Source of the DNA: Xylanibacter muris
GTDB lineage: Bacteria; Bacteroidota; Bacteroidia; Bacteroidales; Bacteroidaceae
Direction: 5' to 3'
NCBI RefSeq assembly: GCF_013166605.1
Contig: NZ_JABKKF010000002.1
Coordinates: 186,001 to 250,000, forward strand
Length of the DNA stretch: 64,000 nt
A program made the position numbers and the translations under genes. The stretch's first letter is position 1. The number at the start of each line of letters is the position of its first letter. Shown in pieces: positions 1,878 to 15,149 of this stretch. The notes beneath the pieces are model-generated. The model made no database searches. It was not told the DNA's origin and saw only the letters and a list, made by a program, of their open reading frames with translations.

Positions 1878-3501
1878 TTAATCTTTCTTTTTGCTTTTTA
1901 TTCTCGATCTCATGGATCTTACCGAGCTGCTTCCTATTCCGAAAATTTTCATCAGTTTGTCATCGGTCATATTCTCGTGTTCGAGAATCATAAATAGTTG
2001 GCTTTTGGGTGACAGTCCGTAATAGTTTAGTTTCATCTCAGTCACAAACTTTACGTCTATTGTGCTGTAATAGTCTATGACGCATATAAAATCCGGCTTT
2101 TGCCATGTTACGGTTGCTCCTCCTTCCATAACGTAGGTGTATAGGCTTTTACCATGTTACGGTTGCTCCTCCTTCCATAACGTAGGTGTATAGGCTTTTA
2201 CCCTTATTTATAGATTCAAGTTTATTGTCTTGCAGCAAATTTATAAACTCTTCTTGCTCCTCTATTTTGCTTTTATATTTGTTTTCAATATTCTCTTTAT
2301 CCTTTATTGTATCCTTGTATGTCTGAATCTGATTTTGTGCTTCGTCATAGTTTCCTTTTATTTTATTTATTTTGTGTCTGTGGTAAATGGATATGATCGT
2401 GCTTATCAAGAGTATGGATACAGCCATATATAAAATGTATAAAGTTGTAGTCTCGTTTTTTTTTCTTTCTGCTTTTCTGTCTATTCCCGTTTGCAGGTCT
2501 TTCACGTTTTCTTCAGAATGTTTCTTTTCCCGGTTTTTCCTTACTTTGATGAGTTCTGAAGAAATCTTGCTCGCTTCCTCATGCAGTCCGAATTTATCAT
2601 AATACTTTATCATGTCTTCCATGATATTTATTTTACTGTTGGCATTCGCAGTCTTTAATGCTTCTTTCCATAGCTCATCGGCCTTTTCTATATTTCCGTT
2701 TCTTGCATAAATGCATGCGATATTGTCTAATGTCGATGGGATTGGTTTTATTTTATATGCCTCTTTCAGATATTTCAATGCTTTTGTCGTATCTGTATTT
2801 ATATAATAAAATCCTATATTGTTTAAAAGTATGGTTCTCTCTTTCATAGGAACATCTTTGAGTAGCGGTATACATTTATCTATATAATACATGGCACAGT
2901 CTTGTTTCCATAGGTCTCCATAGCAAAATGCCATGTCATTAAATGCGTATGCCAGCCAGTAGTTGTTTTTACATTTTATTGAAAGGTTCATGTTTTTTCT
3001 TGCATATTTAAGTGCAAGCCCAAATTCACCTGCTTCTTCATTTATCTGGCATAGGCTTCCCCATATTTTATTGTTTAGGGCATTGTCGTTTATTTTATAA
3101 GCCAAAGCCTCTGCTTCTTTTAAACACACAACAGCTTCCTTGGCTCTTCCTATTTCAAGTAAAGTGGCACCCTTATAATAATATGAGCGTGCTAATTTTT
3201 CCTTGTCTCCATTTTGGTAATAATCAATGCTGATGTTTATCAGTGAGTCTGATGTAATAGGCTGATAAAGTCGGTATCTTGTCTGTATTGTCAGCAGATT
3301 ATAATATGCCCGTGCTTCTTTGTCTGAAATATTCTTTTCCGGGATTTGTTCAAGCATTTTCATTGCCGAGTCCGGCATGTTTTTTATTAGCAGAGAGTCC
3401 ACTTGGGCAAGTCTTTTATAGATTTCTCCTTTATTGCATCCTGTAAGTGCAGACAACGGAATGCTTAATATGAATATTATTTTCAGAATGAGTTTTGTCA
3501 T
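1878..3501 (-). pseudogene. TPR membrane regulator-like gene split by a 49-bp tandem duplication
   Basis: Read from 3501, the protein is a close paralogue of the 3653-5227 product: signal peptide with lipobox LTGC (Cys22), TPR helices to about residue 330, a membrane segment, a coiled coil, then it stops at codon 451 right after EGGATVTW. The rest (VIDYYSTID...RSIRSRIKSKKKD) continues in another frame at 1878-2129. The break falls on a perfect 49-bp direct duplication (2103-2202). Taking out one 49-bp copy gives 1575 bases, 524 codons plus stop, exactly the length of the neighbour. So the gene is an intact 524-aa frame plus one slippage-type duplication. It may be inactive, switchable, or partly active as a 450-residue protein lacking the HTH-like C-terminus. 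Confidence 0.85.
2103..2202. repeat. 49-bp perfect tandem duplication inside a coding region
   Basis: Bases 2103-2153 equal 2152-2202 (period 49, two copies plus two bases). The short direct repeat GGCTTTT[G/A]CC begins at 2095, 2144 and 2193, again 49 apart, so slippage between these 10-base near-identical sequences explains the event. As 49 is not a multiple of three, it shifts the frame of the TPR gene and places a TAA stop at the junction. Confidence 0.95.
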
Positions 3502-3652: not shown

Positions 3653-5227
3653 TTAATCTTTTTTTTTGCTTTTTATTCTTGAGCGTATAGACCTTATAGA
3701 ACTGTCGCCTATGCCATAAATTTTTTTTAGTTCTTCATTATCTTTGCCTTCATTTTCAAGAATCATGAAAAACTGGTATTTGGGTGACAGGTTATTATAG
3801 TTGGTTTTTATGTTTATCACAAATTGTGCGTCGATTGTACTATAATAGTCTATAGCGCATTCAAAGTCGTTTTTATCCCATTTTATAGTGTTTCCTCCTT
3901 CTTTAATCTTGCCGTATAACACGTTGCCATTATTAATAGCTATCGATTTTTTGTCTTGGAGTGTGGTTATCATTTCATTAAGTTTCTCAATATTCTCTTT
4001 ATAATTCTCAGTATCTTTTTTTTGGCTATCGATTATTTCCGTATATTTCTCTATATGTTTCTGTGCCTCGAGATAATGTTTTTTCGTCTTTTTAATATTA
4101 TATATATAATATGTTGTTATGACTATGGCAATAGTCATAATTATAATGACTATTAACTTTAAAACTGTAATTACAGTTGTTTTTTTTGTGTGTTCTATGC
4201 TTTTGTCGAATTCTATCTGCAAGTCTTTTACTTTTTCTTCAGTTCTTTTACTTTTTAAACTGTCTCTTAGTTTTAGTAAATTTACTGCTATGTTGCTTGC
4301 TTCTTCATGAAATCCGAATTGCTCTTTATGTTTGAGCATAGCTTCCATAATTTTAATTCTGCTAAGTAGGCTTTTTGTTGCTAATGCTTTTTTCCATAAA
4401 CTATCTGCTTTTGTGAAATTACCTGTTTTGGCATATAAGTAAGCTAAATTATCTAAAGTTGTATTGTGAGGGTTTATCCTATATGCTTTTTCTAAATAAG
4501 TAAACGCAATAGTGTCGTTTGTTTCTCTATAAAAGTATCCAATGTTGTTTAATATTATGTATTTTTCTTTTGTTGGAACATGATTAAGAATAGGTATACA
4601 TTTGTTTATATAATATATTGCACTGTCTTTATACCCTAAATTTCCATAACATAATGCCATACCATTAAAGGCGAATGCTAACCAATAATCGTTCTTACAT
4701 TTGATGGATAGTTCCATGTTTTTTTTAGCATATTCAAGAGCTAATGAATACTCTCCGGCCAATTCATTTACGAAGTCAAGACTTTCTAAAATTTTATTGT
4801 TTAGGGCGTTGTCGTTTATATCAGAGGCCAATGTTTCCGCCTTTTTCAGGCATACAACCGCTTCTTTCACTCTTCCAATTTCATGTAAAGTAATGCCTTT
4901 ATAATAATATGACCTAGCCAGCTTTTCTCCTTGTTCCTGTTTATAATAATCAATGCTGATGTTTATCAGTGAGTCTGATGTGATAGGCAGATAAAGCCGG
5001 TATCTTGTCTGTGTCATCAGCAGATTGTAATATGCCCGTGCTTCTTTGTCTGAAATGTTCTTTTCCGGGATTTGTTCAAGCATTTTCATTGCTGAGTCCG
5101 GCATGTTTTTTATTAGCAGAGAGTCCACTTGGGCAAGTCTTTTATGGATGTCTCCTTTATTGCATCCTGTAAGTGCAGACAACGGAATGCTTAATATGAA
5201 TATTATTTTCAGAATGAGTTTTGTCAT
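3653..5227 (-). CDS. TPR lipoprotein/membrane protein with C-terminal HTH-like domain
   Basis: 524 residues. Order visible: signal sequence with lipobox LTGC (Cys22); repeated TPR-like helices, roughly residues 25-330 (for example ARSYYYKGITLHEIGRVKEA and LEYAKKNMELSIKCKNDYWL); a hydrophobic membrane span of about 25 residues near 345-370 (VLKLIVIIIMTIAIVITTYY); a charged coiled coil; and a C-terminal segment ending KKIYGIGDSSIRSIRSRIKS. This end resembles the LuxR-type recognition helix layout (E-x-LkkIygi-x-xSSIRsiRsrI). Such proteins in Bacteroidota are thought to sense outside the membrane and act on DNA inside, but the partner is unknown. It is AT-rich, like the peptide locus that follows, and divergent from the DUF3244 gene. 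An exact family name is not certain. Confidence 0.7.
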   Translation of the reverse strand: MTKLILKIIFILSIPLSALTGCNKGDIHKRLAQVDSLLIKNMPDSAMKMLEQIPEKNISDKEARAYYNLLMTQTRYRLYLPITSDSLINISIDYYKQEQGEKLARSYYYKGITLHEIGRVKEAVVCLKKAETLASDINDNALNNKILESLDFVNELAGEYSLALEYAKKNMELSIKCKNDYWLAFAFNGMALCYGNLGYKDSAIYYINKCIPILNHVPTKEKYIILNNIGYFYRETNDTIAFTYLEKAYRINPHNTTLDNLAYLYAKTGNFTKADSLWKKALATKSLLSRIKIMEAMLKHKEQFGFHEEASNIAVNLLKLRDSLKSKRTEEKVKDLQIEFDKSIEHTKKTTVITVLKLIVIIIMTIAIVITTYYIYNIKKTKKHYLEAQKHIEKYTEIIDSQKKDTENYKENIEKLNEMITTLQDKKSIAINNGNVLYGKIKEGGNTIKWDKNDFECAIDYYSTIDAQFVINIKTNYNNLSPKYQFFMILENEGKDNEELKKIYGIGDSSIRSIRSRIKSKKKD

Positions 5228-5249
5228 TGTTCTTGATTGTTATTTGTTG

Positions 5250-5257
5250 CAAAATTA
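5250..5257 (-). promoter_or_regulatory. -7 promoter box of the intact TPR gene
   Basis: Minus strand reads TAATTTTG, a match to the Bacteroidota TAnnTTTG box, 23 bases ahead of the ATG at 5227. The upstream -33 match is weak (TATTTA). The gene-free stretch to 5504 otherwise holds the divergent promoter at 5434-5463. Confidence 0.6.
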
Positions 5258-5433
5258 CTCTTTTTAATCGTAAATAATCACCTTTTTGCTTTTTATATGT
5301 GATATTTGTATTGTAGGATTGTTGCATTTTATACTATACAAGTCATGTTGCATATTATGCAACGTCTTGATATTTAGAAGGATAAGTATAAAATGCCAAT
5401 GCAACACCGTTTTTGAAAAAATATAGGAAAATG

Positions 5434-5463
5434 TTTGGCGAAAAGAAAGAATTTCTAATTTTG
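5434..5463 (+). promoter_or_regulatory. Promoter of the DUF3244 gene
   Basis: TTTG at 5434-5437, 18-base spacer, TAATTTTG at 5456-5463: both boxes of the Bacteroidota primary sigma factor are present. Transcription would begin near 5470, giving a leader of about 35 bases before the ATG at 5505. Confidence 0.8.
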
Positions 5464-5504
5464 CATCAAGAGTAAACGTGAAATAATAACAAAACTTATC
5501 TAAA

Positions 5505-5876
5505 ATGAAAATAAAAAGTATCATATTGTTGGTTGCTGCATTATGTATGAGTTTGATGTTTGCAAATGCGAGTGTTGAGGAAAGTAGTGAAGATAATGCT
5601 TTACGGCCCCGCAAGTCTGAGAAACCTGTAATAACATCCTCATACGATGATGACAGTAAAACTATCAATATTGTGTTTGAAGATGCTGCAAAGGACACAG
5701 AAGTATCTATATATAAAGATGGTGAAATGGTGGAGCAAGAAAATAAGGAAAGTGTTGAAGCCGGACATGTCGGGTCTTATCCTTTGTCCGGATATGGAGC
5801 AGGTGTGTATGATGTATATGTATGTGCAAGCGGAGAAAACGAACTTGTTGAAACTGTAATAATAGCGGATTTTTAG
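5505..5876 (+). CDS. Secreted DUF3244-like small protein
   Basis: 123 residues with a clear signal peptide (MKIKSIILLVAALCMSLMFA, cleavage near residue 22) and a small beta-rich domain: a segment VITSSYDDDSKTINIVFED, then VSIYKDGEMV and SGYGAGVYDVYVCASGENEL. This layout (two or three strands, then G-x-Y-x-V/I) matches the DUF3244 family of Bacteroides/Prevotella envelope or periplasmic proteins of unknown role, often encoded near TPR regulators. It is divergent from the TPR gene and precedes the peptide precursor by 381 bases. It has its own promoter. Whether it belongs to the peptide system (for instance as immunity or carrier protein) is only a guess from position. Confidence 0.65.
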   Translation: MKIKSIILLVAALCMSLMFANASVEESSEDNALRPRKSEKPVITSSYDDDSKTINIVFEDAAKDTEVSIYKDGEMVEQENKESVEAGHVGSYPLSGYGAGVYDVYVCASGENELVETVIIADF

Positions 5877-6015
5877 TTGCTGGCCATTTTAGCCTAATCT
5901 GCAGGTGTTACATTTTTAGGCGTTTTTATGGCATGGTTTTGAGTTAAACAGCTGAATATTAATAGATTAACGTATTTTAAGATGTAACAACAGAAAATAA
6001 ATAATTTTATTTTTT

Positions 6016-6047
6016 CTTGTTTGAAGATTTCTAATTCGTTATATTTG
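6016..6047 (+). promoter_or_regulatory. Promoter of the peptide precursor gene
   Basis: CTTG (6016-6019) or TTTG (6020-6023) lies 20 or 16 bases upstream of TATATTTG at 6040-6047, a match to the Bacteroidota -33/-7 pattern. The transcript leader to the ATG at 6258 would be about 200 bases, unusually long. Near its end is a small perfect hairpin TTGTGGA-AAA-TCCACAA (6210-6226). The gap 5877-6257 shows no other gene. Confidence 0.7.
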
Positions 6048-6257
6048 CAACGTAAAAAGAATAGATTTAAACTTGTAGGCACAGATAGACAACGAAAATA
6101 AACTTGTAATAAAAGAATAGAAAATATATATTTATTCCGGATAGATATGTAGCTGTAGACCTTACTACAATAAAAAAGGAGAGTGTCCGAAAATCTTAAG
6201 AGTAGGCTGTTGTGGAAAATCCACAATGTGTAATATTAATTTCTAAAGAGTAAAACA

Positions 6258-6518
6258 ATGTCAAACGATGATTTTTTTGAAATAGAGCCCTTGGTTTCTT
6301 TCGAAGAGTTTGGACAAGACCTGATGAGCATGGTCTTGGGAGGTACCGGTAGTGGCCCGGTGTCGCCACCGCCATGTGGTAAATATAGCTTTTGTGCAAT
6401 AAATGGCAATTGCGGTAAAAATGAATTTTGTGGTATTTATGGTACATGTGCAGATCTTATGATATGTGGCACATATAAACCGGAAATCTGTAAATTACAA
6501 GCAGAAATAGTACAGTAA
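6258..6518 (+). CDS. Cysteine-repeat RiPP precursor peptide with double-glycine leader
   Basis: 86 residues. The first 29 form an acidic leader ending EFGQDLMSMVLGG, with hydrophobic residues at -4 (V), -7 (M) and -12 (F) from the Gly-Gly, the pattern cut by C39 peptidases. The predicted core starts at Thr30 (TGSGPVSPPP) and carries seven cysteines at residues 40, 46, 52, 58, 64, 70 and 78, an almost perfect six-residue period. The hexads pair into 12-residue units: CGKYSFCAINGN and CGKNEFCGIYGT are clearly related and CADLMICGTYKP is a diverged third. A SPASM radical SAM enzyme follows 102 bases downstream, and a C39 exporter is in the locus. Known SPASM enzymes of this kind attach Cys sulfur to carbon atoms (thioethers), so sacti-/ranthipeptide-like links are the best guess. 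I do not recognise the exact family; it resembles 'GG-Bacteroidales' natural-product precursors in its leader. Confidence 0.82.
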   Translation: MSNDDFFEIEPLVSFEEFGQDLMSMVLGGTGSGPVSPPPCGKYSFCAINGNCGKNEFCGIYGTCADLMICGTYKPEICKLQAEIVQ

Positions 6519-6525
6519 TAATTAG

Positions 6526-6597
6526 AGAGTGTTGAAAGTGTGTAACAGTAATAGGTGTTTATTGTATTTATTTATTGTTACTTTTCAACACTCTTTT
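6526..6597 (+). terminator. Long stem-loop between precursor and maturase genes (partial terminator)
   Basis: Arms AGAGTGTTGAAA (6526-6537) and TTTCAACACTCT (6583-6594) pair perfectly over 12 bp; after a small bulge GTAACAGTAA (6542-6551) pairs with TTATTGTTAC (6572-6581) with one G-U. The stem ends in TCTTTT. It sits between precursor and maturase with no new promoter evident after it, so it likely lets the precursor message accumulate above that of the maturase. Confidence 0.8.
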
Positions 6598-6620
6598 AAG
6601 AAACATATAAAATATAGAAT

Positions 6621-7943
6621 ATGCTGAGAAAATCCATATATACATTCCTCATTCACAGGAACGATGATTATTTGGTATACAACACCGCAAAGAACAATTT
6701 TTGGCGGATAAACGAATTTGTGTACAATTTTATAGAGAATATAGAGACCCATAAGCAGGAAATAGAAAGCGAGGAAGTTATGAAGCGAATTTCAACGCTA
6801 CATTCCATGGGCATTCTCTCTACAGAAGAGGAAGACAACAGTGTTGCCGATGCTATAAGGATGAAACATTTGTCGAACGCATATTCTAAAGAAAAGATAA
6901 GCATCACGCTTGTTCCCACAGTGTCGTGCAATCTTGTTTGCCCGTATTGTTTTGAGACAATCAAACCTAAAGGCATGATGAGCGAAGAGACATGCGACAA
7001 GGTGGTTGAATTCATAAAGAGTCATGTAAATGCCAAATACTTGTATCTTACATGGTTTGGAGGAGAGCCGATGCTCGGAACAAAGATTATGGAGCGTTTC
7101 ATGGGAAAGATAAAAGAGCTTTCCGAAGACCTGCAGCTTGTTCACCATGGTATTATAACAAATGGAACATTGCTCGACAGCAGCCGGTGGGGCGTGTTCA
7201 AGGAATACCCTCTGAATTCTTTGCAGGTGACGTTGGACGGAAAAAAGCCCACCCATGATAAAAAACGTATAAGACCCGACGGACAAGGCACTTTTGACGT
7301 TATAATGGAAAACCTTAATAAATTCGCAGGCGAGTTTCCCGATACCTCAATATCAGTAAGGGTGAACATAGACAAGAATAATGCGGATGAGTTTATGGAT
7401 GTTTATGATTATGTGAAACAACTGTTTCCGGAAAAGAAAAACCTCTTTGTATATCCCGGAATAATCAAGGGCTGCGGAACAGAGGGCATAGACTCGCCTT
7501 TCCTTAAGAATCAGGATATTGCACGGATAAGAGATAAGATGATAGAGCGCGGATATCCGATAAGTTATCCGCAGCACTGTATAGGGGGATGCTGTGCGAC
7601 ATCGCTGTCGAGCTATGTCATAGGTCCTAAGGGTGAGATTTACAAATGCTGGATGGATTTGGGCAAAAAAGAAAGGGAGACAGGCAATGTGTCCGATAGG
7701 AAATACACCAATATGCCGTTGCTCGGAAAATATATGCTATATGGCTCGCATGTGATGACACCTGAATGCTGGAAATGTCCGCTTTTGCCGATATGCTCTA
7801 ATGATTGTGCGCATGAGAGGCTTGAGAATATGGAGAAGAAGGCCGACAATGATTTGTGCTGCATATATAAAGATAATAACGAGGCATTGCTTGACAGTAT
7901 GTACAGGTTTTACAAATCTCATATAAAACAGAAAGAAAAATGA
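6621..7943 (+). CDS. Radical SAM/SPASM peptide maturase
   Basis: 440 residues. The N-terminal ~85 residues (YLVYNTAKNNFWRINEFVYN, then MKRISTLHSMGIL) resemble a PqqD-like peptide-recognition (RRE) domain. Then comes the radical SAM core with the 4Fe-4S motif SCNLVCPYC (Cys103, Cys107, Cys110; C-x3-C-x2-C) and the SAM-binding WFGGEP near residue 145. The C-terminus is a SPASM domain with auxiliary clusters: HCIGGCC, a GEIYKCW segment, and CWKCPLLPICSNDC (C-x2-C-x5-C-x3-C), with a further CC near the end. Such enzymes modify ribosomal peptides. The immediately upstream Cys-repeat peptide is the obvious substrate; thioether formation is inferred, not seen. Expression probably comes from read-through of the hairpin at 6526-6597. 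Confidence 0.9.
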   Translation: MLRKSIYTFLIHRNDDYLVYNTAKNNFWRINEFVYNFIENIETHKQEIESEEVMKRISTLHSMGILSTEEEDNSVADAIRMKHLSNAYSKEKISITLVPTVSCNLVCPYCFETIKPKGMMSEETCDKVVEFIKSHVNAKYLYLTWFGGEPMLGTKIMERFMGKIKELSEDLQLVHHGIITNGTLLDSSRWGVFKEYPLNSLQVTLDGKKPTHDKKRIRPDGQGTFDVIMENLNKFAGEFPDTSISVRVNIDKNNADEFMDVYDYVKQLFPEKKNLFVYPGIIKGCGTEGIDSPFLKNQDIARIRDKMIERGYPISYPQHCIGGCCATSLSSYVIGPKGEIYKCWMDLGKKERETGNVSDRKYTNMPLLGKYMLYGSHVMTPECWKCPLLPICSNDCAHERLENMEKKADNDLCCIYKDNNEALLDSMYRFYKSHIKQKEK

Positions 7944-8069: not shown

Positions 8070-10373
8070 ATGAAAAAGATAAGTTTATTTTTTGTTTGTT
8101 CCCTATTCTCTTTCTCCTCTATGGCCCAGAAAGAAGGCCATAATGTTATATCCGGTTCTGTTGTGGATGCAAACGGCAAAGCGTTGGCTAATGCCACTGT
8201 GTCGTTGAATAACAACGGAACCGTTTCAGGGGCTAAAGCAGATGAGAACGGAAAGTTCACTATTGAATATAAGGCCGGTGCCGACAGCATAGACATAGAG
8301 TGCAGTCTTGTTGGCTTTGAGACGAAAAGGAAAAGGATAAAGAGCGAAAACGATCAAAAGGTGAATGTTACGCTGAATGAAAAGTCGGTGGAGTTGGCCA
8401 ATGTGACCGTTGACGGACAGACACAGATAATGAAGGACGACCATCTTGTTTTCATTCCCACGAAGAATCAGGTGAACGGTGCAAACTCTGGAATAAGCTT
8501 ATTGTTCAATATGATGATACCGCAACTTATTGTAGACAGAATCACAGGCTCGGTAGAGGCTGCCGACAAGTCGGCTGTGTCGTTTTATATCGACGGCCGC
8601 AAAGCGCTTCAGGGTGAGATAAACCAGTTGCGCCCTAAAGATGTGGTCAGAGTGGAATACTATGATGTGCCGGGCGACAAGTTTCCCGGTGAAGGACAGA
8701 ACAAGATAGTTAACTATATTGTGAAGAAATATGAGTATGGAGGATATGTGGACATGCGCACCGACACACGGTGGCTTTATTCCACAGGCGACTATAACAT
8801 ACAGGCGAAGATAAACCATAAAAAGGCCGACTTCATTATTCTTGCAGGAACAAACTTTTCAAAGGATACGGGGATAGAGACAACAGAAACTGCCAATTAT
8901 GCCCTTGACGAAGGTTTTACCCGACTTACCGTTCCCGAGGACGGGCGCACAAAGAATATTTCCCACTATGGCGTTTTCCGCTCGTCGGTGCAATTGGGAA
9001 AGACTTATCTGAACGCGCAGGCCGGACTTAACTGGAGCGAAAGCCCTTATAACACGCTGCTCTCTACTGTGAGTTATTCGCCGGCTGTGTATCCATCGTC
9101 AATACTGTACCAGAATGTATATAGCAAGGGTATCACACCAAGCGGACAGTTGTATTTCAATACAAAGTTCAACAAGCGGCATTCATTGAGAGGTTTTTTA
9201 TTTTATACGTATGGAAGAAACAGATATAAAAGAAACTATGTGGAGGGAACGGAACTGATGCCCGTATTGAACGACAGCCGTGAGAGCAGTCATGATTTTA
9301 ATGTAAAGTTGATGTATAATCTGAGCATGAACCACAACAATTCGCTGGATGTATTCCTTTGGGGATTTTATGATAAGAGTAAGGTTGACTATGGAGGAAC
9401 GACAGAATCTTATCAGGAAATAACATCCTCCGGTTTCCAGATACTTCCTTCCTATACCCAAATGATAGCAAATAAGTTTCGGCTGTATGTGCAGCCCGGA
9501 ATATACATAGACAGGTATCAGATAAGCGAGCATGAGACTGTGACCAAGCTGTTTCCGCGCCCTTCATTTATGGTGAGTTATTATATGAAAAACGGACATC
9601 ATGTACACTTGAAGGCTTCGATGGGGTCGAGCGAACCAAACATGAGCCGATATAACACCACTGAGCAGTATGTGAACAGCTATGAACTGATGAGAGGAAA
9701 TCCGAATCTGAAAATATTGAAACTGTATGATGCCGGATTGTTTTATAATTTCGTACCGAAGAATTTTTTACCGTCAGGAACGTTTTATGTGACATATACA
9801 GGACATGACGATTTGATCAAGGACCGTTATTTCCAGGAAGGCGATAAAATGGTGCACACTTTCCTTACAGACGGTAATTTCCATCAGTTGCTTGCAGGTC
9901 TGGGGCTTTCGAAAAGCCTTTTCAACAGGTCTCTGCAGCTGCAGACAAACATAAACTACTACTATCAGAAAGTGAACGGATTGTATAGCGATGACAATAA
10001 TTATATGGAATGCAGAGTGAGTGCGGCATATTTTATAAAGGGCTTTACGTTTACGGGCAAATTTGGGACACCAAGCACGCTACTCACCTCAAACTCTACC
10101 CTGTATAGACGCCGTTGTAATTATGGCCTGACTGCCTCATGGGGAAAGAACGGGCTGTTTGTGGAGGCCGGATGCAAAAACATCTTTGACAATAATCCGT
10201 ATACGAGACATTGGGGCGATTACGGCACATATTCTTTCGACCGACATTCGGTGTCGGACAGTATGGGTAAGCAGGTGTATGTGAAACTTTCTTACAACTT
10301 CGACTTCGGCCGCAAGACAACCCGTGAGAACCTGAGTGTTGAGAAGGGTGGCTCGGCCATAATGCAACTTTGA
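8070..10373 (+). CDS. Outer-membrane beta-barrel protein with carboxypeptidase-like N-domain
   Basis: 767 residues with a signal peptide ending SSMAQ. Residues ~25-110 form a carboxypeptidase-regulatory-like beta-sandwich (ISGSVVDANGKALANATVSL). There follows a plug-like part (VSFYIDGRKALQGEINQLRP, VVRVEYYDVPG) and a long alternating barrel ending VKLSYNFDFGRK. The architecture matches the TonB-receptor-related outer-membrane beta-barrel families (OMP_b-brl_3 type). In this operon it precedes, with almost no gap, the C39 exporter (stop 10371-10373, exporter ATG 10379), so it may be the outer-membrane passage or receptor for the matured peptide. No classical VEVLRGPGS-type TonB plug motif is visible, unlike in the receptor at 13263. 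Barrel class certain; role inferred from context. Confidence 0.82.
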   Translation: MKKISLFFVCSLFSFSSMAQKEGHNVISGSVVDANGKALANATVSLNNNGTVSGAKADENGKFTIEYKAGADSIDIECSLVGFETKRKRIKSENDQKVNVTLNEKSVELANVTVDGQTQIMKDDHLVFIPTKNQVNGANSGISLLFNMMIPQLIVDRITGSVEAADKSAVSFYIDGRKALQGEINQLRPKDVVRVEYYDVPGDKFPGEGQNKIVNYIVKKYEYGGYVDMRTDTRWLYSTGDYNIQAKINHKKADFIILAGTNFSKDTGIETTETANYALDEGFTRLTVPEDGRTKNISHYGVFRSSVQLGKTYLNAQAGLNWSESPYNTLLSTVSYSPAVYPSSILYQNVYSKGITPSGQLYFNTKFNKRHSLRGFLFYTYGRNRYKRNYVEGTELMPVLNDSRESSHDFNVKLMYNLSMNHNNSLDVFLWGFYDKSKVDYGGTTESYQEITSSGFQILPSYTQMIANKFRLYVQPGIYIDRYQISEHETVTKLFPRPSFMVSYYMKNGHHVHLKASMGSSEPNMSRYNTTEQYVNSYELMRGNPNLKILKLYDAGLFYNFVPKNFLPSGTFYVTYTGHDDLIKDRYFQEGDKMVHTFLTDGNFHQLLAGLGLSKSLFNRSLQLQTNINYYYQKVNGLYSDDNNYMECRVSAAYFIKGFTFTGKFGTPSTLLTSNSTLYRRRCNYGLTASWGKNGLFVEAGCKNIFDNNPYTRHWGDYGTYSFDRHSVSDSMGKQVYVKLSYNFDFGRKTTRENLSVEKGGSAIMQL

Positions 10374-10378
10374 AATAT

Positions 10379-12571
10379 ATGAAGAAGTTTCCATTTTGTC
10401 ATCAGCATGATGCCATGCAGTGTGGCTTGACATGTCTCATGATGATATGTCGGTATTATGGCAGTTTTTATGATTATGACGAGCTGGAAGAACTGTGTGT
10501 GGCGACCCGCAACGGAGTGTCGATGCTCGATATCAGCGAGGCCGCAACGAAAATAGGTTATCATACGGTTTGCGGCCGTATACCGGCCGCAAACCTGAAA
10601 AGCATGCCGTTGCCTTGCATACTCCATTGGAAGCAGAACCATTTCGTGGTGCTCTATAGGATACACCGTGGGAAATACTATATCGCCGACCCTGCGAAAG
10701 GACTTCTGAAGTATAAGGAGGAAGAGTTCCGTAAATGCTGGGTGAGCACGGAGACCAATGGTGAGGAAAAGGGAATAGTCATGTTTATAAAACCCCGTGT
10801 GGGCTATCAGAGCATGGGCTATACCAAGGAAAAGAACAGGAAGCGCACGCTACAGTTTCTTTTCGGCTACATAAAGCCATATCGGAAATATTTCGGGCAG
10901 ATAATACTCGGACTGCTCCTTGGAAGTCTTCTGCAGCTCATTCTTCCGTTTCTTACTCAGGCTATAGTCGATGTGGGTATAAAACAGCGCGACATAGGCT
11001 TTATATGGCTGATATTGCTGGGACAGCTGATGCTCACCGTGAGCCGTACGGCTGTTGATTTCATCCGCCGGTGGCTGTTGCTGCATATCAGTATGAGGGT
11101 GAACCTTGCTCTTATCAGCGACTTCTTCATAAAGCTTCTGAGCCTGCCGATGACGTTTTTCGACACGAAGCAGCTGGGAGACATAATGCAGAGGATGAAT
11201 GACCACGGGCGTGTGGAGCGATTTCTTACAGGCAACGTGCTTAACGTGATGTTCTCGGTGCTCACATTCCTTGTGTTCGGTGGAGTGCTTTACTTCTACA
11301 GCGGTGTCATCTTCATCATTTTCATTGCAGGCAGTGTGTTGTATGCCTTGTGGATAGCTTCTTTCCTGCGCAGACGTAAGGTTCTCGACTATGAGCTTTT
11401 CGAATTGCAGGCGGAGAACAACAGCAAGACGTATGAGTTTATAAACTCTATGCAGGAAATAAAACTGCAGAACTGCGAACAGCGCCGCAGATGGGAGTGG
11501 GAAGATGTGCAGGCGAGTGTGTTTGAGGTGCAGATGAAGAGCATGAAACTGCAGCAGAGTCAGGAGGCCGGAAGCATATTCCTCAACGAGGTGAAGAACA
11601 TGGTAATAACCGTTGTTGCGGCAACGGCCGTGATAAACGGTGACATGACGCTCGGTATGATGCTGGCTGTGCAGTATATCATCGGGCAGCTTAGCCGCCC
11701 TGTGGAGCTTATTATGGATTTCGTATATTCGTTTCAGGACGTGAGGATAAGCCTTGAAAGAATCAACGATGTACATGGCAGGTTTCCGGAAGACAACAGG
11801 CATTTCGTCTTTTTGCATGTCGAAGACCCTGACTTGGGCATAAGATTTTCGGAAGTGAATTTCAAGTACGATAAGAATATAAAGGAAAAAGTGCTTGACA
11901 ATATAAGTCTGCATATCCCCAAAGGAAAGGTGACGGCCATTGTGGGAGCGTCGGGAAGCGGAAAGACAACTCTTCTGAAACTCCTTCTCGGATATTACGA
12001 GGTGGAAGAAGGCCGTGTGATGGTGGGAAGCATGGAGGTGTGCGAGCTTGACAAGCGATGGTGGCGCAGACAGTGCGGAGTGGTGATGCAGGACGGTGTC
12101 ATTTTCTCGGAGTCAATAGCAAGAAACATTGCCGTGGACGATGGGGATATTGACACAGAGCGGATGATAAAGGCTGCGGAGATAGCCTGTATCAAGGATA
12201 CCGTGATGTCGCTGCCGATGAAGTTTGACACAAAGATAGGCCGCGATGGAATGGGACTGAGTCAGGGGCAGAAGCAGCGTATACTCATAGCCAGGGCTGT
12301 GTATAAGAACCCGGAATACATCATCCTCGATGAGGCGACAAACTCTCTTGACGCCAATAATGAGCGTGCGATAGTGGACAACCTTGCAAGGTTTTATGAG
12401 GGGCGTACCGTAGTGGTGGTGGCCCATAGACTGAGCACTGTGAAGAATGCCGACCAGATAATAGTGATGGACAAGGGTCGTATAGTGGAGCAGGGTACTC
12501 ATGAGTCGCTCACCGCGCGGCATGGAGCATATTACAATCTGGTGAGAAACCAACTGGAAATGGGTAATTGA
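10379..12571 (+). CDS. Peptidase C39-containing ABC exporter (double-glycine peptide transporter)
   Basis: 730 residues from ATG 10379; a TTG at 10370 overlapping the previous stop is a less likely start. The N-terminal C39 protease has the full catalytic set: Gln9 and Cys15 in QHDAMQCGLTC (six apart, as in ComA), His88 in KQNHFVVLYR, Asp104 in YIADPAKG. A six-helix ABC membrane domain spans about residues 155-440 (ILGLLLGSLLQLILPFLTQA). The ATPase shows Walker A GASGSGKTT, signature LSQGQKQR, Walker B YIILDEAT and the H-loop AHRLST. It should cut the precursor after Gly28-Gly29 and export the core. It is translationally close to the barrel (5 bases) and the adaptor gene (17 bases), forming one operon. 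Confidence 0.93.
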   Translation: MKKFPFCHQHDAMQCGLTCLMMICRYYGSFYDYDELEELCVATRNGVSMLDISEAATKIGYHTVCGRIPAANLKSMPLPCILHWKQNHFVVLYRIHRGKYYIADPAKGLLKYKEEEFRKCWVSTETNGEEKGIVMFIKPRVGYQSMGYTKEKNRKRTLQFLFGYIKPYRKYFGQIILGLLLGSLLQLILPFLTQAIVDVGIKQRDIGFIWLILLGQLMLTVSRTAVDFIRRWLLLHISMRVNLALISDFFIKLLSLPMTFFDTKQLGDIMQRMNDHGRVERFLTGNVLNVMFSVLTFLVFGGVLYFYSGVIFIIFIAGSVLYALWIASFLRRRKVLDYELFELQAENNSKTYEFINSMQEIKLQNCEQRRRWEWEDVQASVFEVQMKSMKLQQSQEAGSIFLNEVKNMVITVVAATAVINGDMTLGMMLAVQYIIGQLSRPVELIMDFVYSFQDVRISLERINDVHGRFPEDNRHFVFLHVEDPDLGIRFSEVNFKYDKNIKEKVLDNISLHIPKGKVTAIVGASGSGKTTLLKLLLGYYEVEEGRVMVGSMEVCELDKRWWRRQCGVVMQDGVIFSESIARNIAVDDGDIDTERMIKAAEIACIKDTVMSLPMKFDTKIGRDGMGLSQGQKQRILIARAVYKNPEYIILDEATNSLDANNERAIVDNLARFYEGRTVVVVAHRLSTVKNADQIIVMDKGRIVEQGTHESLTARHGAYYNLVRNQLEMGN

Positions 12572-13262: not shown

Positions 13263-15149
13263 ATGGAAAAAGAAGTCTATCGTTTGTTAAGGGCAGGAGC
13301 GTCCGGCATTTTGTTTATGGCATTCTGCGTACAGCCGGCACGTCCGTCCGGCATTGCGGACACGCTTCGTGCGCATCCGGTGGGGGAAGTGGTGGTGACC
13401 GGCAGCAACAGTGCCACGGGCAGGAACCTGCTTCCGTATACGGTGTCGGTGGTTAACGGCCGGCAGATAGAGGCAACGGGAAAGACACAGTTGCTGTCGG
13501 CCATATCCGGCCAGGTGCCGGGCCTTTTTGTATCGGAGCGTAACATTTTCGGATTCGGTATCAGCAACGGTGGTTCCGGAGGCATAAAGATACGTGGGGT
13601 GGGAGGCGACCCGACCAATGCCGTGCTGATGATGGTCGACGGACAGCCGCAGTTTGCCGGCATATACTCGCATCATGTGGCAGACTTTTACGGAACGGAA
13701 TATGCCGACCGTGTGGAGGTGCTGCGAGGTCCCGGCTCTGTGCTTTACGGTTCCAATGCCATGGGAGGAGTGGTAAACGTGATAACAAAGAATGCGGATA
13801 AAGATGGTGTGCATACCACGTTGACCTCGCAATACGGGTCGTATGACACGTGGCTGTCATCGGTGACAAACACAGTGCGTATGGGCAGATTCTCATCGCT
13901 TGTGTCGTTGGGGTATGACCGTACCGACGGTGTGACGGATGGCTTTGATTTCAAACAGGGCAGCCTGTATGCGAAGCTCGGATACGATTTCAGTGACAGC
14001 TGGAAGCTGCGTGCCGACTATTCGCTGATGAACTTTACAGGAAACGATCCTTTGTATCCCAAGCTTTCGGATCCGGAGTCCACTGATATATATCATCAGA
14101 ATATAACGCGCGGTGAGGCTTCGCTGTCGGCAGGAAACGCATACGGAAATACTGACGGAAACGTGAGGGTATACTATAGTTACGGAAACCATTATGTTGA
14201 CGATCCGCGTCATTTCCACAGCCTTGACGACCGTTTCGGAATACTTGCATATCAGAATTTCCGTCCTTGGGAGGGCGCTTCAGCCACCATGGGATTCGAT
14301 TTTGACACATATACCGGTGAGATTCCTGTTTCGGGAGGAGTCTCACACGTGGACAACACGCGTCCTACCACCATAGGCCGCAAAAGTATAACGGAGTATT
14401 CTCCTTATGTTACATTTTCACAAGAACTGATAAACGGCTCCCTCACCGTTAACGCCGGTCTGCGCATGTCGAACAGCGACCGTTTCGACACGCAGTGGAT
14501 ACCGCAGTGCGGATTTGCGGTGCGTCCGGCAGGAGGATGGATGATAAAGGCGTCGTTGGCTAAGGGCTACCGCAATCCCTCTTTCCGCGAAATGTATCTA
14601 TATGCAACGGCAAATCCTGAGCTTGATCCTGAGACGATGATGAATTATGAAGTGAGCGCGGGTAAGACATTCTCGCGCTATTTCGGTTTCGATGTTACCG
14701 GATACTACAGCAAGGGCGACAATATGATTCAGGTGGTGAGACAGAAGAATGTGAATACCGGAAGTTTTATAAATAAAGGTGTTGAAGTGAGTGCCCACAG
14801 CCATCCTGCCGATAATCTTACGCTCCGTTGCACCTACAGTTATCTTTACACAACGATTGACAACCTTACGGCAGCTCCGAAGAACCAGTATTTCCTCGGT
14901 GTGACGTGGCGTCCGGTGGCAAGGCTCGGTGTGGATGCGGAAATGAAAGGCATCGGAGGACTTTATGTTGCCGATGATGTGGCACGCCAGAACTATACCT
15001 TGTTTAATATAAGGCTCTCATACGATGCTCTTCCATGGCTTGAGATTTTTACTAAGCTCGACAACATCACCGGACGCCACTATACTATAAACGAAGGATA
15101 CGAGATGCCCGGATTCACCGGAATGGGAGGATTTAGGTTGAGGTTTTGA
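13263..15149 (+). CDS. TonB-dependent outer-membrane receptor
   Basis: 628 residues. After an N-terminal signal region, the plug is classical: GEVVVTGSNS, GQVPGLFVSERNIFGF, IKIRGVGG, VLMMVDGQPQ and RVEVLRGPGSVLYGSNAMGG. The rest is an alternating barrel (for example RADYSLMNFTGNDPLYPKLS) that ends in GGFRLRF, an aromatic C-terminus typical of outer-membrane barrels. Such proteins import scarce ligands (iron complexes, corrinoids, copper or others) with TonB energy. No carboxypeptidase-like extension and no SusD partner are present. The ligand cannot be told, and no cobalamin riboswitch was recognised upstream. It could be unrelated to the peptide locus, although it lies 185 bases beyond it. 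Confidence 0.92.
   Translation: MEKEVYRLLRAGASGILFMAFCVQPARPSGIADTLRAHPVGEVVVTGSNSATGRNLLPYTVSVVNGRQIEATGKTQLLSAISGQVPGLFVSERNIFGFGISNGGSGGIKIRGVGGDPTNAVLMMVDGQPQFAGIYSHHVADFYGTEYADRVEVLRGPGSVLYGSNAMGGVVNVITKNADKDGVHTTLTSQYGSYDTWLSSVTNTVRMGRFSSLVSLGYDRTDGVTDGFDFKQGSLYAKLGYDFSDSWKLRADYSLMNFTGNDPLYPKLSDPESTDIYHQNITRGEASLSAGNAYGNTDGNVRVYYSYGNHYVDDPRHFHSLDDRFGILAYQNFRPWEGASATMGFDFDTYTGEIPVSGGVSHVDNTRPTTIGRKSITEYSPYVTFSQELINGSLTVNAGLRMSNSDRFDTQWIPQCGFAVRPAGGWMIKASLAKGYRNPSFREMYLYATANPELDPETMMNYEVSAGKTFSRYFGFDVTGYYSKGDNMIQVVRQKNVNTGSFINKGVEVSAHSHPADNLTLRCTYSYLYTTIDNLTAAPKNQYFLGVTWRPVARLGVDAEMKGIGGLYVADDVARQNYTLFNIRLSYDALPWLEIFTKLDNITGRHYTINEGYEMPGFTGMGGFRLRF

Follow-up and report, generated by a model that had tools for sequence, protein, structure and literature searches.

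Here we describe a candidate peptide-modification cassette in Xylanibacter muris, contained in a 64,000-nucleotide stretch of contig NZ_JABKKF010000002.1 (positions 186,001 to 250,000; hereafter the window, in whose own numbering coordinates are given) and built around the open reading frame (ORF) at 6258-6518. We propose, with confidence that is evenly balanced, that this ORF encodes the cysteine-ladder precursor of a ribosomally synthesized and post-translationally modified peptide (RiPP), in which cysteines would be joined to the residue three positions downstream (+3), most likely as beta-thioethers, by the adjacent radical S-adenosylmethionine (SAM)/SPASM enzyme with its RiPP recognition element (RRE)-like domain, with subsequent C39-type cleavage after Gly-Gly and release of the product. 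The proposal is read from the sequence, and what carries it is a residue preference at +3 that recurs in held-out peptide cores.

Precursor and maturase

The ORF, whose coordinates and translation are correct as first annotated, carries seven cysteines at residues 40, 46, 52, 58, 64, 70 and 78, i.e. in steps of 6, 6, 6, 6, 6 and 8, and a leader that ends in VLGG and places V, M and F at the expected hydrophobic positions -4, -7 and -12. In shuffles of the core, any single step recurred at least five times in 23 of 200,000 cases. The unmodified core has a calculated monoisotopic mass of 5974.73 Da. The core had also been described as three 12-residue units, each encoded in 36 bases (CGKYSFCAINGN, CGKNEFCGIYGT and CADLMICGTYKP); the repeat is clear for the first two units, which share 24 of 36 bases, and weak for the third, which shares 16 of 36 with each of them, while a DNA-level tandem array was rejected, Tandem Repeats Finder reporting none. 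When about 5.8 billion proteins were searched by a word-based method (three candidates), P0002 (74%) and P0003 (59%) were the sole hits besides the window's own protein, and both keep the five six-residue steps (6, 6, 6, 6, 6, 7). The precursor matches no Pfam or NCBIfam model at E ≤ 1 and has no match to the CefA model NF038108 (30-bit cut-off). The initial claim that the ladder fits no described family thus holds for family matches but not for the ladder as such, which is not alone: CefA has a cysteine at every fifth position, and sister clusters display CX4, CX3 and CX4/CX6 cores.

The proposed RiPP-type cassette was borne out: it combines a double-glycine (GG)-leader precursor, a SPASM radical SAM enzyme carrying an RRE-like domain at its N terminus, and a C39 exporter featuring the Cys/His/Asp motifs. 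A short, leader-bearing precursor adjoins an RRE-bearing modifying enzyme, its leader is conserved in sister clusters, and the GG leader with its hydrophobic positions is found together with an intact C39 exporter, as for other GG/C39-exported peptides.

In the enzyme itself, the CX3CX2C motif and seven SPASM cysteines are conserved in 48 of 48 aligned relatives. Its predicted structure (predicted local distance difference test score, pLDDT, 91) finds CteB as the best match among solved structures in three comparisons, and the enzyme is closer to CteB (E 3.2e-37) than to the solved sactisynthase SkfB (E 2.9e-10). The family-model scores, considered for the best 25 of 65 models, follow a similar order, with 121.6 bits for PapB against 53.5 and 53.2 bits for the sactisynthases GggB and RumMC, respectively. 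Among these best 25 the enzyme stays below the curated cut-off of every peptide-maturase model, and membership was accordingly rejected for the C-rich peptide maturases of TIGR04463 (191.1 bits, the top-scoring model; cut-off 525), CefB NF038107 (171.4; cut-off 600 bits), the PapB family NF047865 (cut-off 340 bits), the SCIFF maturases of TIGR03974 (84.8; cut-off 425 bits) and the CXXX-repeat maturases of TIGR04115 (63.4; cut-off 350), the last of which would in addition call for a CX3 and not a CX5 core. The GG-Bacteroidales maturase model TIGR04148 (cut-off 300 bits) is not among the best 25 of 65 for the window enzyme, and the sister enzymes of loci L106 and L026 score 58.9 and 56.7 bits against it; Clo7bot membership of the window genes was likewise ruled out by the curated cut-off.

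The residue three positions after each cysteine

Across the window peptide, P0002 and P0003, a Y, F, N or H is found three residues after the cysteine in 15 of 18 hexads, with the other offsets giving 1, 3, 1 and 6 of 18. With the +3 class defined as N, D, Y, F, H and W, 20 hand-picked cores had a class residue at +3 of 98 of their 143 cysteines (shuffle mean 38.6; 0 of 5000 shuffles as high). With a fixed extraction rule, 137 earlier loci yielded 34 distinct cores, in which 111 of 213 cysteines fit (mean 60.3; 0/2000), and 28 newly fetched loci yielded 19 cores with 101 of 148 (mean 42.5; 0/2000); once seven of these 19 held-out cores had been dropped as duplicates of earlier loci, 58 of the 85 cysteines in the 12 new ones still fit (mean 28.1; 0/2000), with other offsets unenriched. 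It is important to note that the rule kept a single ORF from each locus, the one richest in Cys, and missed visible precursors, including those of L026, L029, L034, L141, L144 and L167. The core of the latter (L167:1214-1498, minus strand) has ten cysteines, mostly in CX4/CX6 alternation, nine of which are followed by Asn at +3. In a class-free test of 44 nonredundant cores, G reached 146 at +3, the maximum of 2000 shuffled values being 36; Y, F, N, H and W were enriched there and D slightly so, and the depleted residues include S, T, E and P. Together, these data point to the +3 residue of the same hexad as the link site, rather than to a partner in a neighboring hexad as the initial annotation had suggested.

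In the mechanism that we propose, the RRE-SPASM enzyme would bind the precursor leader and join cysteine sulfurs to the beta carbons of the +3 residues, yielding candidate rings C40-Y43, C46-N49, C52-N55, C58-Y61 and C70-Y73; a C64-L67 ring is doubtful and C78 probably stays free. The C39 exporter would then cut the leader after Gly-Gly, and the peptide would be secreted. We consider a beta-thioether likeliest because, in the residues enriched at +3, an sp2 carbon adjoins the beta C-H, a feature shared by the Asp that PapB uses and the Asn that NxxcB uses. The repeating unit would be a cysteine with its acceptor at +3, so that the step equals four plus a spacer of zero to three residues, and such a unit would account for the CX3, CX5 and alternating CX4/CX6 cores of relatives alike.

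A number of observations weigh against this assignment. The residue class was picked after the cores had been inspected, the three window-type peptides are related and their 18 hexads not independent, and the window core alone is not significant when all offsets are allowed (348/5000), with Leu following C64 and Gln following C78 at +3. Relatives close in enzyme or leader conform poorly (L104 0/4, P0135 1/5, L024 2/5), L046 is weak (3/7), and the CX4 ladder of L108 has its Tyr/His at +2. Of 46 cores, 25 show a +3 fit of 60% or more and six show none, namely the CxC cores of L005, L030 and L032 plus those of L077, L104 and L004. A slight +3 excess is also present in 149 control Cys-rich ORFs (188/878, mean 160.2, 5/500), and other offsets deviate in the class-free test, if far less: +4 (G 36, 0/2000), -2 (G 43, 2/2000; the same residue as +3 in a CX4 ladder), -1 (G 34, 4/2000), -6 (G 34, 9/2000) and +1 (G 32, 9/2000). 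On the enzymatic side, PapB is reported to be strict for CX3D in the covered parts of a review (PMC8172795), and the linker cysteine C285, found in 30 of 48 relatives and a possible fourth ligand of auxiliary cluster I (Aux I), might occupy the site that is open in the three-Cys Aux I of CteB.

Several of these points would suit a thioether RiPP whose acceptors lie elsewhere, with the aromatic or Asn residue at +3 serving recognition or folding. The failure of +3 in L104, its weakness in L024 and P0135 and its shift in L108 speak for such an arrangement, and sequence gives no certain acceptor choice for this enzyme class; we nonetheless deem it unlikely, as +3 is by far the strongest offset and recurs in the held-out cores. 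A sactipeptide, in which the cysteine sulfurs would be bound to acceptor alpha carbons as in subtilosin or thuricin Z, appears quite unlikely to us. A Cys-rich peptide does adjoin a radical SAM enzyme here, and the covered parts of PMC8172795 describe both evenly spaced cysteines with Asp/Thr/Tyr/His acceptors in thuricin Z and unnested sactionine rings in streptosactin. On the other hand, SkfB is a much weaker relative of the enzyme than CteB, Ser and Thr are underrepresented at +3, and the nested hairpins of the type I layout require a Cys-free acceptor half opposite the Cys half, whereas the window cysteines nearly reach the C terminus and stop only 8 residues short of it. Lastly, that the cysteines remain metal-binding thiols or disulfides, with the enzyme catalyzing epimerization, a C-C link or cyclopropane formation and the outer-membrane barrel importing a metal complex, is improbable: siderophore and copper transporters are among the barrel's best structural matches and TigE and the epimerase EpeE among the enzyme's fold relatives, but CteB is the best enzyme match in three comparisons and evenly spaced single cysteines are not a usual metal site.

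Cassette organization and sister clusters

The genes 3' of the precursor lie on the same strand in the order radical SAM/SPASM enzyme, barrel, C39 exporter and short membrane-fusion-type protein (Table 1). The hairpin between precursor and enzyme genes, equaled in stability by none of 200 shuffles, goes unlisted by a simple terminator scan whose loops are limited to 3-8. Hairpins of this kind in RiPP operons often raise precursor output above enzyme output, and the one seen here would allow for more precursor than enzyme.

Table 1. Features of the cassette and its surroundings, in window coordinates
Feature	Coordinates	Strand	Basis or details
Second, paralogous TPR protein	2149..3501	-	TPR models
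TPR lipoprotein-like protein, putative regulator	3653..5227	-	TPR models; lipobox and helix-turn-helix-like tail by eye
Small secreted protein, weakly DUF3244-like (Pfam match below cut-off)	5505..5876	+	Upstream of precursor
Precursor, RiPP-type, 86 aa, CX5 cysteine ladder	6258..6518	+	ORF and translation; register kept in P0002 and P0003
Leader, 29 aa, VLGG end; same type as sister-cluster leaders	6258..6344	+	Alignment of 8 precursors
Six Cys hexads (three 12-residue units); +3 residues Y43, N49, N55, Y61, L67, Y73	6375..6482	+	
Strong terminator-like hairpin in precursor/radical SAM gene gap; T's end the 3' arm	6524..6596	+	Fold -28.2 kcal/mol, z -5.36
Radical SAM/SPASM peptide maturase, 440 aa; RRE-like winged-helix domain at residues ~1-90	6621..7943	+	PF04055, model
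Outer-membrane beta-barrel; CarboxypepD_reg-like N terminus, TonB-dependent transporter fold	8070..10373	+	Pfam, predicted structure, Foldseek, sister-cluster homologues
C39 peptidase-containing ATP-binding cassette exporter (PCAT)	10370..12571	+	PF03412, PF00664, PF00005
Short membrane-fusion-type protein, 169 aa	12568..13077	+	Position; N-terminal homologues after exporters

The barrel model (pLDDT 84) has TonB-dependent receptors as its top Foldseek matches, namely PirA, PfeA and the Bacteroides XusA (E 7e-18 to 4e-17). The Pfam Plug model has no match in the barrel, in which the predicted structure suggests a plug; as a guess from the same model, the barrel may be the exit or recapture site of the product. 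The exporter retains its QCG, NHF and DPA motifs, Walker A and the signature. The 169-residue protein that follows has no Pfam or NCBIfam match, and its position points to a putative membrane-fusion role; homologues of its N-terminal part lie about 300 bases or less past the exporter in L123, L124/L025, L029, L030, L066, L098 and L099. Directly after the cassette, a BtuB-like TonB receptor (13263-15149, plus strand) was not counted as a member, there being no homologue of it in the fetched related loci.

Upstream, the small secreted protein is a probable cassette member, being 28% identical (E 2e-9) to its positional counterpart in L104. Small secreted proteins are encoded directly 5' of the precursor at L106:552-971, L107:710-1105, L104:3211-3585 and window 5505-5876; those of L106 and L107 are alike (59%), and the window and L107 proteins have no significant match to each other. 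TTTG/TAnnTTTG pairs, which we take to be a Bacteroidetes-type promoter-like motif, precede both the precursor (6020-6047, with a 16-base spacer by eye) and the small secreted gene (5434-5463). A homologue of the TPR lipoprotein-like protein, a putative regulator, adjoins the precursor in L125. Over about 180 bases that span the 5' ends of the two minus-strand TPR genes and the regions upstream of them, the sequences are nearly identical, which suggests a recent duplication.

Neighborhood comparison, as advised at the outset, recovered the order precursor, enzyme, barrel, exporter and fusion protein in L123 and L124 as well, where L124 and L025 carry the same precursor. L125 has precursor, enzyme, barrel and exporter, and L122 precursor, enzyme and barrel only; exporter and barrel follow in L123 (L107), L124 (L106) and L125 (L104). 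In L123 the barrel gene (4601-6899) is divided into two ORFs, either because this copy is broken or through a sequencing error.

Enzyme relatives, with the window genome included, were found in 18 of 399 genomes of the family (E ≤ 1e-30), 18 of 398 of the genus (E ≤ 1e-60, query P0007) and 14 of 393 of the order (E ≤ 1e-80), and further in 28 of 397 genomes of another family, apparently Muribaculaceae (E ≤ 1e-70). Among genomes of the same genus, the precursors of Hoylesella marshii (L030), an uncultured Prevotella (L025) and Prevotella lacticifex (P0125) recur in identical form. The enzyme tree has 34 members; L019 is absent from it (no enzyme ORF passed the motif filter), L017 is a fragment and P0004 is labeled with the Cys steps of P0002. 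In this tree the window enzyme falls into a starred clade of seven (100/99) within a starred clade of eleven (99/99). Sister clusters L104, L106/L025, L107, L108, L024 and L026-L029 share the leader type, the enzyme clade or both with the window, whereas their cores differ from the CX5 of the window and P0002: CX3 runs in L106 and L107, a CX4 ladder in L108, alternating CX4/CX6 dodecads in L026-L029, and short cores with no ladder in L104 and L024. The six-residue step was therefore rejected as a conserved trait. A profile of eight precursors, built on the leader alignment, retrieved 16 proteins at E ≤ 10, counting that of the window itself; one of them is P0135, with a second, different CX5 core in steps of 6, 6, 6 and 7. 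P0136 is a variant of the CX4-ladder peptide P0125 with the same leader and a core that by eye looks read in another frame.

Relation to known systems

The kind of system described here is known, that of radical SAM cysteine-rich RiPPs. We encountered neither a CX5 ladder nor a +3 rule in our searches of the open-licence literature. Taken further, the data would suit an undescribed and widespread Bacteroidales RiPP class whose peptides are assembled from C-x-x-acceptor modules. A single enzyme lineage would install small beta-thioether rings in ladders of any spacing, among them the first benzylic beta-thioethers formed between Cys and Tyr/Phe by radical chemistry, and export or recapture of the product would fall to a dedicated transporter of the TonB-dependent type; as a whole, this wider proposal is tentative and somewhat unlikely. 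If the +3 assignment is true, many cross-link sites in a large number of uncharacterized Bacteroidales peptides could be deduced from their sequences, and it would become clear why ladders of different step are tolerated by related enzymes. Of relevance to peptide engineering, the acceptors in non-alpha radical thioether chemistry would then also include aromatic side chains. Variable spacing with recurring +3 residues renders the link positions testable.

Genome mining has already addressed radical SAM RiPP clusters of Bacteroidales that feature GG leaders and PCATs (PMC10352776). According to the covered parts of that report, these clusters resemble the window in their GG leaders and in a varying combination of PCAT, outer-membrane protein, membrane-fusion protein and TPR genes; those parts describe no cysteine ladder.

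The closest named ladder is that of CefA/CefB (NF038108/NF038107, Cys-every-fifth), which like the window pairs a long, even run of cysteines with a radical SAM/SPASM maturase, its step being five vs. six in the window. No CefA match occurs in 198 sampled genomes from the order, that of the window among them, although the CefA-positive locus L138 comes from a genome of this order too. The L138 peptide (2808-3050, minus strand) has 12 cysteines in eleven steps of five with many CGG[N/D] units, scores 53.1 bits against a cut-off of 30, and carries N, D or Y at +3 of nine of its 12 cysteines. Although this peptide passes the CefA model, the L138 enzyme falls far under the CefB cut-off.

The ranthipeptides, represented by freyrasin (PapA/PapB), thermocellin (CteA/CteB) and NxxC, share with the window an RRE-SPASM enzyme and repeated Cys-plus-acceptor units such as the CX3D of PapA. 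They differ in where the acceptor is placed: PapB uses Asp or Glu at +4 and NxxcB an upstream Asn, whereas the acceptor proposed for the window would lie at +3 and often be aromatic.
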